From the NCBI GenBank assembly GCA_025352345.1, contig JANXTP010000090.1:1-33363 (forward strand): a DNA stretch of 33,363 nucleotides. The letters are read 5' to 3'. Position 1 is the stretch's first letter. The number at the start of each line of letters is the position of its first letter. Below the pieces are notes generated by a model. It had not been told where the DNA came from. It did no database searches and was given only the letters and a program-made list of their open reading frames with translations. Positions 27,618-33,075 of the stretch are shown one piece after another. The stretch is from Burkholderiales bacterium. GTDB lineage: Bacteria > Pseudomonadota > Gammaproteobacteria > Burkholderiales > Burkholderiaceae_C. Made by a program: the position numbers and the translations under genes.

Positions 27618-28859
27618 ATGCCGCTCGCGCCCCGTCGCCTCATCGCCCACCTCGACATGGATGCCTTCTATGCGTCGGTCGAGCTGCTGCGCTATCCCGA
27701 GCTGCGCGGCCAGGCGGTGGTGATCGGCGGCGGGCGCGACCGGCAGCCGGCGCTGCAGCCGGATGGCACGCACCACTATGCGAGCCTGCGCGATTACGCT
27801 GGCCGCGGCGTCGTCACCACCTGCACCTACGAGGCCCGCGCCTTCGGCGTGCATTCGGCCATGGGCCTGATGAAGGCCGCGCGGCTGGCACCCGAGGCGG
27901 TGCTGCTGCCGGTCGACTTCGATGAATACCGCCTCTATTCGCGTCGTTTCAAGGACGCGGTGCGCGGCCTCGCGCCGCAGGTCGAAGATCGCGGCATCGA
28001 CGAGATTTACATCGACCTGAGCGAAGTACCCGGTGCGCAGCACGATGCCGGCGCCGCGGCGGCGCGCGCGTTGAAGGACGCGGTGTTCGAGGCCACCGGC
28101 CTGCGCTGCTCGATCGCGGTGGCGCCCAACAAGCTGCTGGCCAAGATCGGCTCCGAGCTCGACAAGCCCGATGGCCTGACGCTGCTCACCCACGCCGACC
28201 TCACCACACGCATCTGGCCGTTGGCCGCGCGCAAGGTCAACGGCATCGGGCCGAAGGCGGCCGAGAAGCTGGCCGGCTTCGGCCTGCACACCATCGGCGA
28301 TGTGGCCGCAGCCGATCCGCAGTGGTTGTTGGCGAACTTCGGGCTCAGCTACGGTGCCTGGCTGCACGCGGCGGCGCACGGCCGCGACGAGCGGGCCATC
28401 GTCACCCACAGCGAACCGAAATCGATCAGCCGCGAAACCACCTTCGAGCGCGACCTGCACGCGGTGCACGACCGCAGCACGCTGTCGGCCCTGTTCACCC
28501 GGCTGTGCGAGCGGCTGGCTGGCGACCTGCAACGCAAGGGCTACGCGGCGCAGACCCTGGGCATCAAGCTGCGTTTCGACGACTTCAAACGGGTGTCACG
28601 CGACGTGACGCTGCCCGCGCCCATCGCCGACGGGCAGGCGATCCGCCATGCCGCGGGCTCGTGCCTGAAGCGCGTGGACCTGTCGCAGCGGCTGCGGCTG
28701 ATCGGCGTGCGTGCGACCGGCCTGGTGCCCACCTCCGACGCCGCATCCGCTGAACCTCAGGCACCGCCGGGCACCCGAGCCGCGGCGACGCGCCCTGCGC
28801 TGATGACGCACAAATGGCAGGGCGAACTGCCGTTTTTCGATCCTTCAACAAAGACGTGA
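27618..28859 (+). CDS. dinB: DNA polymerase IV (Y-family)
   Basis: 'RRLIAHLDMDAFYASVELLRYPELRGQAVVIGGG', 'EARAFGVHSAMGLMKA', 'EDRGIDEIYIDLSEV', 'CSIAVAPNKLLAKIGSELDKPDGLTLL', 'KVNGIGPKAAEKLAGFGLHTIGDVA'. Confidence 0.96.
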   Translation: MPLAPRRLIAHLDMDAFYASVELLRYPELRGQAVVIGGGRDRQPALQPDGTHHYASLRDYAGRGVVTTCTYEARAFGVHSAMGLMKAARLAPEAVLLPVDFDEYRLYSRRFKDAVRGLAPQVEDRGIDEIYIDLSEVPGAQHDAGAAAARALKDAVFEATGLRCSIAVAPNKLLAKIGSELDKPDGLTLLTHADLTTRIWPLAARKVNGIGPKAAEKLAGFGLHTIGDVAAADPQWLLANFGLSYGAWLHAAAHGRDERAIVTHSEPKSISRETTFERDLHAVHDRSTLSALFTRLCERLAGDLQRKGYAAQTLGIKLRFDDFKRVSRDVTLPAPIADGQAIRHAAGSCLKRVDLSQRLRLIGVRATGLVPTSDAASAEPQAPPGTRAAATRPALMTHKWQGELPFFDPSTKT

Positions 28860-28927
28860 GCTTGAAGAATAATCCGGGTTTGTACTAGATATCGCGTGCA
28901 TCGTCCCAAGCGCGCGGCTCGCCTCCC

Positions 28928-29935
28928 ATGAACCAGCATCGGCCTCGTTATTTCATGCGTCGTTTGACGGCAGCGGCCCTGCTCGTGTTCGGTCACGCAG
29001 GCATCTCATCGGCACAGGAAGCCGCCCCATCCACGCTCGCATCACCGCTCGCGCCAGCAACCTCGACACCCCCAGCGCAACCGCAGATGCCCGCCATGGT
29101 GCCGGGTCGCCAAGGCAAGCTGCTGCTGACCTCGGGCGTCAGCAGCATCGACGGCGCTGCCGGCGGCGGTCTGACGCCGTGGGCCGTGACCGGCGGCTAC
29201 GCCACCGATGGCAGCTTCGGCACCAGCGCCTTCTTTACCCGCACCATCGTGCAGGACTACGCGCTGAACGTGTATGGCGTGGCCGTGGGCTGGGGCGATC
29301 GGCTGGAAGTCTCGCTGGCGCGGCAGGAATTCAACACCGGCCAGTCGATCGCGCCGCTCGGCTTTCCGGGCCTGAAGCTGCGCCAGACCATCGTCGGCCT
29401 GAAAGTGCGCGTCGCGGGCGATGCGGTGCTCGACAGCGACAATTTCATGCCGCAGATTGCCCTCGGCATCGAATACAAGGACCTGGACTCGGGCCGCTTT
29501 GAGCCGGTGCTGCGCTCGCTCGGCGCTCACACGCAGGGCACCGATTTCTATGCCAGTGCCACCAAGCTGTTCCTGGCGCAGAGCGTGCTCGTCAACGCTA
29601 CACTGCGCGCCACCCGCGCCAACCAGAACGGCCTGCTCGGCTTCGGCAGCAGCAAGCGCAACGGCTACCGCCTCGAGGCCGAGATGTCGCTGGCGCTGGC
29701 CTTGCGCAAAGACCTGGCGATCGGCATCGAATACCGCATGAAGCCCGACAACCTGAACGGTGTGGTCTTCGGCAACGGCTTGCGTGAAGACGACTGGAAA
29801 GATGCCTTCATCGCCTGGACGCCCTGCAAAGATTTTTCGCTGACGCTGGCCTATGTCGACCTCGGCCACATCGTGCCAGCGCTGACGCCACGGCGGCAGA
29901 CCGGGCCCTATGTGTCGGCGCAGCTGTCTTATTGA
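28928..29935 (+). CDS. DUF3034 family exported/outer-membrane-like protein
   Basis: Signal peptide 'MRRLTAAALLVFGHAGISSAQE'; 'GKLLLTSGVSSIDGAAGGGLTPWAVTGGYATDGSFGTSAFFTRTIVQDYALNVYGVAVGWGDRLEVSLARQEFNTG'; C-terminal alternating pattern ending 'TGPYVSAQLSY'. Confidence 0.85.
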   Translation: MNQHRPRYFMRRLTAAALLVFGHAGISSAQEAAPSTLASPLAPATSTPPAQPQMPAMVPGRQGKLLLTSGVSSIDGAAGGGLTPWAVTGGYATDGSFGTSAFFTRTIVQDYALNVYGVAVGWGDRLEVSLARQEFNTGQSIAPLGFPGLKLRQTIVGLKVRVAGDAVLDSDNFMPQIALGIEYKDLDSGRFEPVLRSLGAHTQGTDFYASATKLFLAQSVLVNATLRATRANQNGLLGFGSSKRNGYRLEAEMSLALALRKDLAIGIEYRMKPDNLNGVVFGNGLREDDWKDAFIAWTPCKDFSLTLAYVDLGHIVPALTPRRQTGPYVSAQLSY

Positions 29936-29959
29936 ATCGACCGACTCAACGGGTGTGAC

Positions 29960-30466
29960 ATGAAACCTGCATCGAACCGCGCTCGCGCGCTGAACACGTT
30001 TTGGATCCTCGGGCTGTGCGGTCTGGCGACCAGTGGCTTGGCTCACGCCGAGGAACCAAAACGCCCACCGGCCGTGGTCGACTCCTACATTCCGGTGGCG
30101 CCACCCGACGACTCGCTGTACCAGGACCTGGGCGGGCAGAGTGGCTTGGTCAAGATCGCCGACGAATTTCTAACCCGCCTGCAGGCCGATCCGCAGCTGG
30201 CGGCGTTCTTCCGCGACATCGACGCCAAGCAGTTCAAGGAGCGACTGGTAACCCAGTTCTGCGAAGTCTCGGGCGGGCCGTGCAAGCAGGCCAAGCACGA
30301 CATGCGCAAAGTGCACAGCGCGGTCGACATCAACAAGGCCAGCTTCAATGCCACCGTCGAGGTGCTACAGCAGGCGATGGACGCGCAGGGCGTGGGCTAC
30401 CGCACACAGAACAGATTGCTGGCGCAGCTCGCGCCAATGCATCGCGACATCATCAACGCACCTTGA
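29960..30466 (+). CDS. Exported group 1 truncated hemoglobin
   Basis: Signal peptide 'FWILGLCGLATSGLAHAEE'; 'SLYQDLGGQSGLVKIADEFLTRLQADPQLAAFF', 'VTQFCEVSGGPCKQAKHDMRKVHSAVDINKASFNATVEVLQQAM' with proximal His in MRKVH. Confidence 0.92.
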   Translation: MKPASNRARALNTFWILGLCGLATSGLAHAEEPKRPPAVVDSYIPVAPPDDSLYQDLGGQSGLVKIADEFLTRLQADPQLAAFFRDIDAKQFKERLVTQFCEVSGGPCKQAKHDMRKVHSAVDINKASFNATVEVLQQAMDAQGVGYRTQNRLLAQLAPMHRDIINAP

Positions 30467-30476
30467 GGTCCGGGGC

Positions 30477-30498
30477 CACCGCGCGGCAGCGCGCGGTG
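30477..30498. repeat. GC-rich hairpin between globin and lldD-like genes
   Basis: CACCGCGC-GGCAGC-GCGCGGTG, perfect 8-bp stem, no T-tract downstream. Confidence 0.7.
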
Positions 30499-30542
30499 AC
30501 GATTAGCATGCAGAGGCTGACATCCCGCGTCACCCCCCCAAC

Positions 30543-31688
30543 ATGCCACGCATCACCCACATCGAAGAACTGCGCCTCCTTGCCAAGAAGCGGGTGCCGC
30601 GGATGTTCTACGACTACGCCGATTCGGGCTCGTGGACCGAAGGCACCTACCGCGCCAACGAGGCTGACTTCCAGCGCATTCAGTTGCGCCAGCGCGTGGC
30701 CGTCGACATCGCCAAACGCAGCACGCGGGTGCAGATGATCGGCATCGACGCCGCCATGCCGGTGGCCATCGCGCCGACCGGCATGACCGGCATGCAGCAC
30801 GCCGACGGCGAAATCTTGGCGGCGCGCGCGGCCGAGAAGTTCGGCATCCCGTTCACGCTGAGCACGATGAGCATCTGCTCGATCGAGGACATCGCGGCGC
30901 ACACCACCGCGCCGTTTTGGTTTCAGCTGTATGTCATGAAGGACCGCGGCTTCGTCGAGCGGTTGATCGAGCGCGCCCGCGCTGCCAGGTGCAGCGCGCT
31001 GATGCTCACGCTCGATCTGCAGGTGCTGGGCCAGCGCCACAAAGACATCCACAACGGCCTGAGCGCACCGCCCAAGCCCACCATCGCCAACCTGATCAAC
31101 CTGGCCACCAAGCCGCGCTGGTGCATGGGCATGCTGGGCACGAAGCGACGCAGCTTCGGCAACATCGTCGGCCATGCGCAGGGCGTGGGCGATCTGTCGT
31201 CGCTGAGCTCATGGACGGCCGAGCAGTTCGACCCGGCGCTGACCTGGGCCGATGTCGAATGGGTCAAAAAGCGCTGGGGCGGCAAGCTGATCCTGAAGGG
31301 CATCATGGACGCCGAAGACGCGCGGCTGGCTGCCGACAGCGGCGCCGACGCATTGATCGTGTCGAACCACGGCGGCCGCCAGCTCGACGGCGCGCCGTCG
31401 TCGATCGCCGCGCTGCCGGCGATTGCCGACGCGGTCGGGGACCGCATCGAGGTGTGGATGGACGGCGGCATCCGCAGCGGCCAGGAGGTGCTGAAAGCCT
31501 GGGCGCTGGGCGCACGCGGCACGCTGATCGGCCGCAGCTTCCTCTATGGCCTGGGCGCGATGGGCGAGGCCGGCGTGACCCGCTGTCTGGAGATCATCCG
31601 CAACGAACTCGACCTGACGATGGCGTTTTGCGGGCACACCGACCTGCTCACGGTGGACCGAGGGATCCTGCTGCCCGGCAGCTGCTGA
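30543..31688 (+). CDS. FMN-dependent alpha-hydroxy-acid dehydrogenase (L-lactate dehydrogenase LldD-like)
   Basis: 'EELRLLAKKRVPRMFYDYADSGSWTEGTYRANEADFQRIQLRQRVAVDI', 'IAPTGMTGMQHADGEILAARAAEKFGIPFTLSTMS', 'LIVSNHGGRQLDGAPSSIAALPAI', 'VWMDGGIRSGQEVLKAWALGARGTLIGRSFLYGLGAMGE'. Confidence 0.95.
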   Translation: MPRITHIEELRLLAKKRVPRMFYDYADSGSWTEGTYRANEADFQRIQLRQRVAVDIAKRSTRVQMIGIDAAMPVAIAPTGMTGMQHADGEILAARAAEKFGIPFTLSTMSICSIEDIAAHTTAPFWFQLYVMKDRGFVERLIERARAARCSALMLTLDLQVLGQRHKDIHNGLSAPPKPTIANLINLATKPRWCMGMLGTKRRSFGNIVGHAQGVGDLSSLSSWTAEQFDPALTWADVEWVKKRWGGKLILKGIMDAEDARLAADSGADALIVSNHGGRQLDGAPSSIAALPAIADAVGDRIEVWMDGGIRSGQEVLKAWALGARGTLIGRSFLYGLGAMGEAGVTRCLEIIRNELDLTMAFCGHTDLLTVDRGILLPGSC

Positions 31689-31991: not shown

Positions 31992-32274
31992 GGTGGTCCC
32001 CCAGCGCTACTCCGCCTGTCCATTCCCGGGCAGTAATGTAGTGCGTTACGTTCCCGATTCTGGAGAGACCCCAGAGGGAAAAAGATCAGCCAGAACGTTG
32101 ACGCGCGACCCAGCCGATTCAGCCGCCAGCGATCGCCGCGCCGAGCGGTTTCACCATCGTTATGGCTGGCTCATCGGCCCGCGGCAGCACTCGAATTCTT
32201 GCGCGGGGCGTAGCGCCGTTGCCACCCCTAAGGTCCCGCTAAGAGTTCGCGGCCAGACTGGCGGTCCGCAACTC

Positions 32275-33075
32275 ATGGCGCACTGCATCATCGTGAACGA
32301 GACCTCATCAGGCCGAACGATCGCGTGGCTCAACAAGGTCCCGGAGATCACACTGGCCTTCTGGATCATCAAGATCCTGTCCACCACCGTGGGCGAGACC
32401 GGCGCCGACTTCCTGGCGGTCAATGCAGGCTGGGGCCAGGGCCCGACCCGCATGGTGATGGCCACCTTGCTGGCGGTGGCGCTGGTCGTGCAGCTGAGAA
32501 CGCGCCGCTACACCCCTTGGGCCTACTGGCTCACTGTGGTGCTGGTGAGTGTGGTGGGCACCCAGGTCACCGACCTGCTGACCGATGGCCTGGACGTCAG
32601 CCTGTACGTCAGCACGGCGGCGTTCGCGCTGACACTGGTCGCGATCTTTGCTGTCTGGTACCGGGTGGAGCGCACCTTGTCCGTCCACGACATCGTCACC
32701 CCCAGGCGCGAGCTGTTCTATTGGCTGGCCATCCTGTGCACCTTCGCACTCGGTACGGCGGCCGGCGATCTGGCTACCGAAGCCCTGGGCCTGGGTTTCG
32801 TGTGGGGCGCTGTCGCGTTCGGTGCGTTGATCGCCGTGTCCTACGCAGCGTGGCGGATCGGCGGCAACGCGGTGCTCACTTTCTGGCTGGCCTACATCCT
32901 GACCCGGCCCTTCGGCGCGACCCTGGGTGACCTGCTGACCCAGGCCAAGACCTATGGCGGCCTGGGCGTGGGCGCCATGTGGACCAGCGCGCTGTTCCTC
33001 ACCGTGATAGTGGCGCTGGTGGCCACTGCGCAGTTAAGCCAGAACCACCGGTCTGCACAACCAGCTGCCGATTGA
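32275..33075 (+). CDS. DUF347-repeat (COG4705) multi-pass membrane protein
   Basis: Four internal repeats of the (F/Y)W...G...D type, e.g. 'KVPEITLAFWIIKILSTTVGETGADFL' and 'GGNAVLTFWLAYILTRPFGATLGDLL'. The upstream ORF extension to 31948 is not protein-like. Confidence 0.88.
   Translation: MAHCIIVNETSSGRTIAWLNKVPEITLAFWIIKILSTTVGETGADFLAVNAGWGQGPTRMVMATLLAVALVVQLRTRRYTPWAYWLTVVLVSVVGTQVTDLLTDGLDVSLYVSTAAFALTLVAIFAVWYRVERTLSVHDIVTPRRELFYWLAILCTFALGTAAGDLATEALGLGFVWGAVAFGALIAVSYAAWRIGGNAVLTFWLAYILTRPFGATLGDLLTQAKTYGGLGVGAMWTSALFLTVIVALVATAQLSQNHRSAQPAAD

Follow-up and report, generated by a model that had tools for sequence, protein, structure and literature searches.

The locus described here raises the question of whether genes for a protein of the DUF3034 family, a truncated haemoglobin carrying a putative signal peptide and an LldD-like FMN enzyme, encoded one after another, constitute a system of the cell envelope, and which genes have to be counted with it. 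The window, meaning the whole stretch of DNA analysed, comprises 33,363 nucleotides of a Burkholderiales bacterium (contig JANXTP010000090.1). The ORF coordinates and Pfam matches agreed with the initial annotation in placing the three genes on the same (+) strand with gaps of 24 and 76 bp, and the following features were assigned:

28928..29935, + strand: DUF3034 (PF11231) protein, 335 aa; Pfam 319 bits
28928..29014, + strand: putative signal peptide of the DUF3034 protein, approximately residues 1–29; sequence and heuristic scan
29960..30466, + strand: group 1 truncated haemoglobin with an apolar pocket, TrHbN-2-like and putatively exported, 168 aa; Pfam 54 bits
29960..30049, + strand: putative signal peptide of the globin, approximately residues 1–30; heuristic scan
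30260..30262, + strand: globin Cys101 (E15), the first of two invariant cysteines, with a proposed disulfide to Cys108; 53/53 aligned
30281..30283, + strand: globin Cys108 (EF loop), the second invariant cysteine; 53/53 aligned
30314..30316, + strand: globin His119 (F8), the invariant proximal haem ligand, matching HbN His81; 53/53 aligned
30543..31688, + strand: LldD-like FMN hydroxy-acid dehydrogenase, judged to lie outside the system, 381 aa; FMN_dh 452 bits

Upstream of the DUF3034 gene lies a DNA polymerase IV-like gene (Pfam), and a weak sigma-70-like site, which is a consensus match only, was located at 28845–28873, just 5' of the DUF3034 gene.

The recurrence of this arrangement was investigated in DUF3034 loci from three sources, namely named genome contigs (48 loci), a sample of 150 genomes from the window's order (18 with DUF3034) and a sample of 399 genomes from its phylum (39 with DUF3034), these 39 representing 28 genera and more than one class. 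The DUF3034 gene adjoined a gene of one globin subfamily in all 39 DUF3034 genomes of the phylum sample. This subfamily, defined there by a cut-off of at least 140 bits (the next genome reached 97), was present in 41 of the 399 genomes, including 39 of 39 with DUF3034 and 2 of 360 without it; the Fisher p values for such co-occurrence ignore shared ancestry. With a profile of the neighbouring globins, the neighbours scored at least 130 bits, and the best other truncated haemoglobins of the window's order scored 30 or less. In the order sample, 15 of the 18 DUF3034 genomes had an adjacent globin, as judged by coordinates. The genome G038 was an exception, where the globin gene is located away from DUF3034 and overlaps a copper-protein gene. 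L006, a locus initially scored as globin-less, has a frameshifted globin gene adjoining DUF3034. Among 78 DUF3034–globin pairs, 70 were tandem and 8 divergent. Further, the protein distances of the two families were correlated (r 0.84, with a shuffled maximum of 0.19), partly reflecting shared species history.

These data demonstrate that the pairing of DUF3034 with the globin is far beyond chance. A lack of recurrent co-occurrence between DUF3034 and exported globins had been named as the outcome that would speak against the proposed envelope module, and the neighbourhood check gave adjacency throughout the phylum sample. The proposal therefore held in that the two genes recur as a unit, and fell short in that the cluster was incomplete, a copper protein and a c-di-GMP enzyme also belonging to it. 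The module is well supported, and its mechanism is inferred.

No adjacent globin was found at the divergent DUF3034 genes of L042–L046, L048 and L049, which come from a deltaproteobacterium, Thiotrichaceae and similar MAGs, or in genomes G082 and G124. At four of these loci (L044, L045, L048 and L049, relatives of Thiomargarita/Beggiatoa), the globin-less DUF3034 gene lies near genes for a Fur-family regulator and a BamE-domain protein. Separately, genome G226 carries a second, decayed DUF3034–globin copy (L209, G226:C3:67000-79000); both of its genes are interrupted by stops or fragmented, as if the pair loses its function jointly.

Concerning the DUF3034 protein, the window sequence matched PF11231 with 319 bits against a cut-off of 25, over positions 1–255 of the 255-position model, and is thus a member of the family. 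Signal peptides were scored in this study by a heuristic scan, which found the N-terminus to be signal-peptide-like (MNQHRPRYFMRRLTAAALLVFGHAGISSA-QE) and was positive in 53 of 56 aligned DUF3034 proteins. The outer-membrane-like C-terminus noted in the initial annotation was confirmed in the alignment: the window protein ends in AQLSY, and a terminal F, Y or W is found in 53/56 proteins. In the AlphaFold model (56 sequences; mean pLDDT 85, pTM 0.79), a signal helix is followed by a linker of low confidence and by 12 long strands, which lie between residues 97 and 334, and DUF3034 is accordingly predicted to be a 12-stranded outer-membrane beta-barrel. The PDB matches obtained by Foldseek were generic outer-membrane barrels (OmpG, FapF, KdgM and porins). 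KdgM, OmpG and FapF are porin-like barrels, as DUF3034 appears to be, and the alignment with KdgM covered most of that protein (TMt 0.81–0.82, rmsd 3.0–3.5); however, identity in the structural alignments with these proteins was 6–13%, with no clear sequence relation, and the invariant glycine-rich segment preceding the barrel (G76, G79–G81) as well as the invariant E/K/R set are DUF3034's own.

Two faces alternate along the strands, one conserved and more polar, the other variable and hydrophobic (mean conservation 0.74 vs 0.46). As the faces were assigned by hydrophobicity, the conserved one is only presumed to be the inner face. Residues R125, E127, K159, K184, K213, R227, E252, E268, R270, K272, E287 and D292 are conserved at 91–100%, and many of the conserved charged residues fall on the presumed inner face. 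The conserved charged residues, together with the barrel, make it likely that DUF3034 is a specific channel or a docking site. At five Xanthomonadales-type loci (L010, L011, L013, L014 and L025, at approximately 4.4–5.9 kb), a gene for a small secreted Lipoprotein_15 repeat protein was observed just 5' of DUF3034.

The globin matched PF01152 (Bac_globin) with 54 bits over residues 52–165, and its first match, both by sequence (phmmer) and by structure, was HbN of Mycobacterium tuberculosis. The structural model matches HbN and the TrHbN of Shewanella benthica, with TMt mostly 0.80–0.94, and the proximal histidine F8 (His119) is present in 53 of 53 aligned globins. The protein is therefore a truncated haemoglobin of group N. 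Its N-terminus is signal-peptide-like in the heuristic scan (MKPASNRARALNTFWILGLCGLATSGLAHA-EE), which was positive in 51 of 53 aligned globins.

Mapped on the alignment to HbN, the haem pocket is apolar: B10 is V, L, M or I in 50/53 globins, E7 is L, F, V or I in 50/53, E11 is L, F or I in all 53, CD1 is Phe in 51/53, and G8 is mostly Leu and is Thr in the window protein. The TrHbN-2 type is defined by hydrophobic residues at B10, E7, E11 and G8, with Phe preferred at CD1 (PMC11904497), and by this residue mapping, the globin appears to be of that type. HbN itself, a TrHbN-1, is the closest solved relative in sequence and fold, and the best match was its TyrB10Phe/GlnE11Val mutant (2gl3); wild-type HbN has TyrB10 and GlnE11, whereas the window globin has neither. 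Because these two residues are missing, the NO-dioxygenase pocket of HbN is absent, and an HbN-type NO dioxygenase was rejected as a candidate function, as none of the 53 aligned globins has Tyr at B10 or Gln at E11.

The TrHbN-2 of S. benthica (SbHbN) resembles the window globin in its group 1/N fold, hydrophobic B10, E7 and E11 (and mostly G8), preference for Phe at CD1 and His at F8. Unlike SbHbN, which was crystallised as a 116-residue globin (PMC11904497), the window globin has a putative signal peptide and an invariant cysteine pair at E15 and in the EF loop, Cys101 and Cys108 each being present in 53 of 53 globins. The cysteines of SbHbN (E16 and F10) were reported to be too distant for an intramolecular disulfide (PMC11904497), whereas Cys101 and Cys108 would be fitting partners for a periplasmic disulfide. 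Judged from the sequences, the putative signal peptide and this cysteine pair would be new with respect to the TrHbN-2 description. Putatively exported Cys-Cys truncated haemoglobins with a longer stretch ahead of the E helix were also found at three loci with no DUF3034 nearby (L202, L203 and L204), and therefore the DUF3034-linked clade belongs to a broader group of such globins. Small genomes of one family (f79; e.g., G204:C44:10902-11759 and G247:C14:147383-148561) have 2–5 group-N globin genes, often in tandem, which scored approximately 55–70 bits on the subfamily profile and are distinct from the DUF3034-linked clade.

Clustering of the genes neighbouring DUF3034 revealed two more families, namely a small, putatively exported copper protein and a dCache_3-HAMP-GGDEF-EAL protein, hereafter the sensor. 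The copper protein, annotated as a 'methylamine utilization protein' in a Caballeronia record, has the ligands H88, C155, H158 and M161 invariant in 31 sequences, as in a type-1 copper site. Its PDB relatives, by weak matches, are amicyanin, pseudoazurin and Cu nitrite reductase, and no Pfam match was obtained for the L031 protein. In the sensor, the EAL motifs are kept (EAL in 36/37, N in 36/37, E in 37/37, DDFG in 37/37 and EGVE in 29/37; the Lys pattern, perhaps too strict, in 14/37), while a GGDEF-type motif is found in just 9–13 of 37 and is mostly degenerate. Therefore, the sensor is probably a c-di-GMP phosphodiesterase.

The copper protein occurred in 38 of the 39 DUF3034 genomes of the phylum sample and in 13 of the 360 genomes without DUF3034; for the sensor, the counts were 37 of 39 and 12 of 360. 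Within 6 kb of DUF3034, the copper gene was located in 32 and the sensor in 30 of the 39 genomes. The common gene orders, seen across classes, were copper>sensor>DUF3034>globin and an arrangement in which the copper and sensor genes diverge from DUF3034>globin. By public annotation, the divergent order occurs on a Novosphingobium plasmid (NZ_CP039697.1), and the order DUF3034>globin>copper>cache protein on a Caballeronia plasmid (NZ_CP049160.1); large plasmids of these two genera thus carry all or most of the module. Seven of the 39 DUF3034 genomes, including the window's own, have the sensor away from DUF3034; in the window's genome, the copper and sensor genes overlap on contig C180 and not on the window's contig.

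The copper and sensor genes were present without DUF3034 in 11 genomes, and the DUF3034–globin pair was present without the sensor only in G049 and G226, the latter having the decayed second copy. This one-sided dependence leads us to read the pair as a front end to a copper-protein sensor with an exchangeable output. In G049, genes for an ECF sigma factor and an RskA-type anti-sigma factor follow the copper gene, and loci of Methylotenera, Azospirillum and Pseudomonadaceae also have such genes close to DUF3034, making the ECF sigma/RskA pair a possible alternative output. Loci with ECF sigma and RskA-like genes near DUF3034–globin were L168 (G049), L022, L023, L015, L047, L026 and L166.

As DUF3034–globin pairs, which many proteobacteria possess, almost always occur in genomes with the copper protein and the c-di-GMP enzyme, an undescribed system of envelope gas or redox sensing is pointed to. 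Our preferred reading, to which we give somewhat less than an even chance, is that DUF3034 and the exported globin form one envelope unit, which serves as the front end for the copper protein and the inner-membrane dCache-HAMP-GGDEF-EAL unit and couples the gas or redox state of the envelope to c-di-GMP. In such a system, DUF3034 in the outer membrane would let a small polar or charged ligand into the periplasm, or would dock the globin. The globin, held by its proposed disulfide and having an apolar pocket for the haem, would bind a diatomic gas (NO, CO or, with low affinity, O2) or switch its redox state. The copper protein might then swap electrons with the globin, or, alternatively, the gas-bound globin might alter the copper protein or the dCache domain. 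The membrane protein would read the state of the globin or copper protein via its periplasmic dCache domain and alter c-di-GMP breakdown, with the outcome that the envelope gas or redox state governs motility or attachment; in some lineages, the ECF sigma/RskA anti-sigma pair might take the output role. The broader formulation, a widespread and undescribed haem–copper periplasmic relay in which the barrel, a disulfide-stabilised globin and a type-1 copper protein act on a c-di-GMP phosphodiesterase or an ECF sigma/anti-sigma pair, is put forward as a possibility on the doubtful side. The part of this argument that comes from sequence consists of the adjacency and co-occurrence, the putative export signals, the predicted barrel, the haem and copper ligands, and the kept EAL with a mostly degenerate GGDEF; the co-occurrence of the four genes does not prove signalling. 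Handling of O2, NO or haem by the DUF3034–globin pair, as suggested initially, could be part of such a function.

The layout of outer-membrane part, periplasmic redox-capable part and inner-membrane c-di-GMP enzyme is that of YfiBNR-type signalling. The DUF3034 barrel, the globin/cupredoxin pair and the dCache-HAMP-GGDEF-EAL protein with intact EAL resemble this layout and share no protein with it: the Pfam domains of YfiB, YfiR and YfiN were not found in the window genes or in the representative neighbours scanned, which sets the system apart from YfiBNR.

Type-1 copper proteins are electron carriers, and the overlap of globin and copper genes away from DUF3034 in G038 suggests a direct globin–copper link. 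Both fit a second reading, in which the four genes make up a periplasmic chain for redox reactions or gas processing (for example, removal of NO or peroxide, or buffering of O2), the copper protein being the globin's electron partner and c-di-GMP control responding separately to the same stress. Pentahaem cytochrome/truncated haemoglobin fusions of cable bacteria likewise combine a periplasmic truncated haemoglobin with an electron-transfer partner, and their truncated haemoglobin domains were proposed to be periplasmic oxidases (PMC11976967). However, these fusions carry multihaem domains, were described as unique to cable bacteria (PMC11976967), and have no DUF3034, copper protein or c-di-GMP gene. 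Against the chain, the apolar pocket has no TyrB10/GlnE11 network such as NO dioxygenases use, a low O2 affinity is predicted from it, and no reductase or oxidase recurs among the DUF3034 neighbours. We regard such a chain as unlikely.

An uptake function for haem or metal, with DUF3034 as the channel and the globin as a periplasmic haem carrier or scavenger, would agree with the 12-strand barrel, its conserved charged residues and KdgM-like fold, and with the ferric uptake regulator genes adjoining the globin-less divergent DUF3034 of Thiotrichaceae. Among the recurrent neighbours, however, we identified neither a TonB-dependent receptor, nor an ABC transporter, nor a haem oxygenase, and the globin pocket with its conserved proximal His suggests a protein that holds its haem stably and does not serve as a carrier, making this explanation improbable. 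There is a similarly slim chance that DUF3034 and the globin are a separate envelope pair, linked to the copper and c-di-GMP genes merely by shared ecology; the copper/sensor pair does indeed lie apart from DUF3034 in some genomes, including the window's own, but the linkage in 32 and 30 of the 39 genomes is more than ecology would give.

In the open literature searched, DUF3034 appears to be unstudied, and PF11231 has no paper. Mentions of DUF3034 found there do not describe the present family (a legend that elsewhere names DUF3037, and an integral membrane protein of Streptomyces). The other parts are of known kinds, and no paper in the open literature searched joins a truncated haemoglobin with methylamine utilization proteins or joins these parts. 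This study therefore offers a hypothesis of function and a four-gene context for DUF3034, for putatively periplasmic truncated haemoglobins and for the copper proteins called 'methylamine utilization protein'; if true, a globin would act outside the cytoplasm within bacterial c-di-GMP control.

The LldD-like protein matched PF01070 (FMN_dh) with 452 bits and passed the PRK11197 subfamily model (417.9 over 376), while the NCBIfam LldD model NF033901 gave 361.8 bits against a cut-off of 550, placing the protein, by that model, outside the LldD L-lactate dehydrogenases. In the 88 loci and the window, an lldD-like gene was found near DUF3034–globin only in the window and six loci: directly downstream of the pair in L003–L005, whose DUF3034 proteins are the closest to the window's after that of L002, and in looser proximity in L145, L146 and L149, which come from genomes of the window's family. 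The early suspicion that this gene is an unrelated neighbour was thus borne out, and its membership in the system was rejected, as it is confined to the window's lineage. That the enzyme belongs to the system, for example through hydroxy-acid oxidation tied to the globin, is highly improbable and largely refuted, since for all its shared strand, 76 bp gap and proximity in those few relatives, it is missing at all other loci searched and has no signal peptide by eye. A terminator in the gap between the globin and lldD-like genes was also rejected: the gap contains a 9-bp hairpin, but the stretch is no more stable than shuffled sequences (z -0.59), and no terminator-like site was found there. 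Downstream of the three genes lie a small, unassigned reverse-strand gene and, at 32137–33072 on the + strand, a gene for a DUF347 four-repeat protein that is unrelated to the module.
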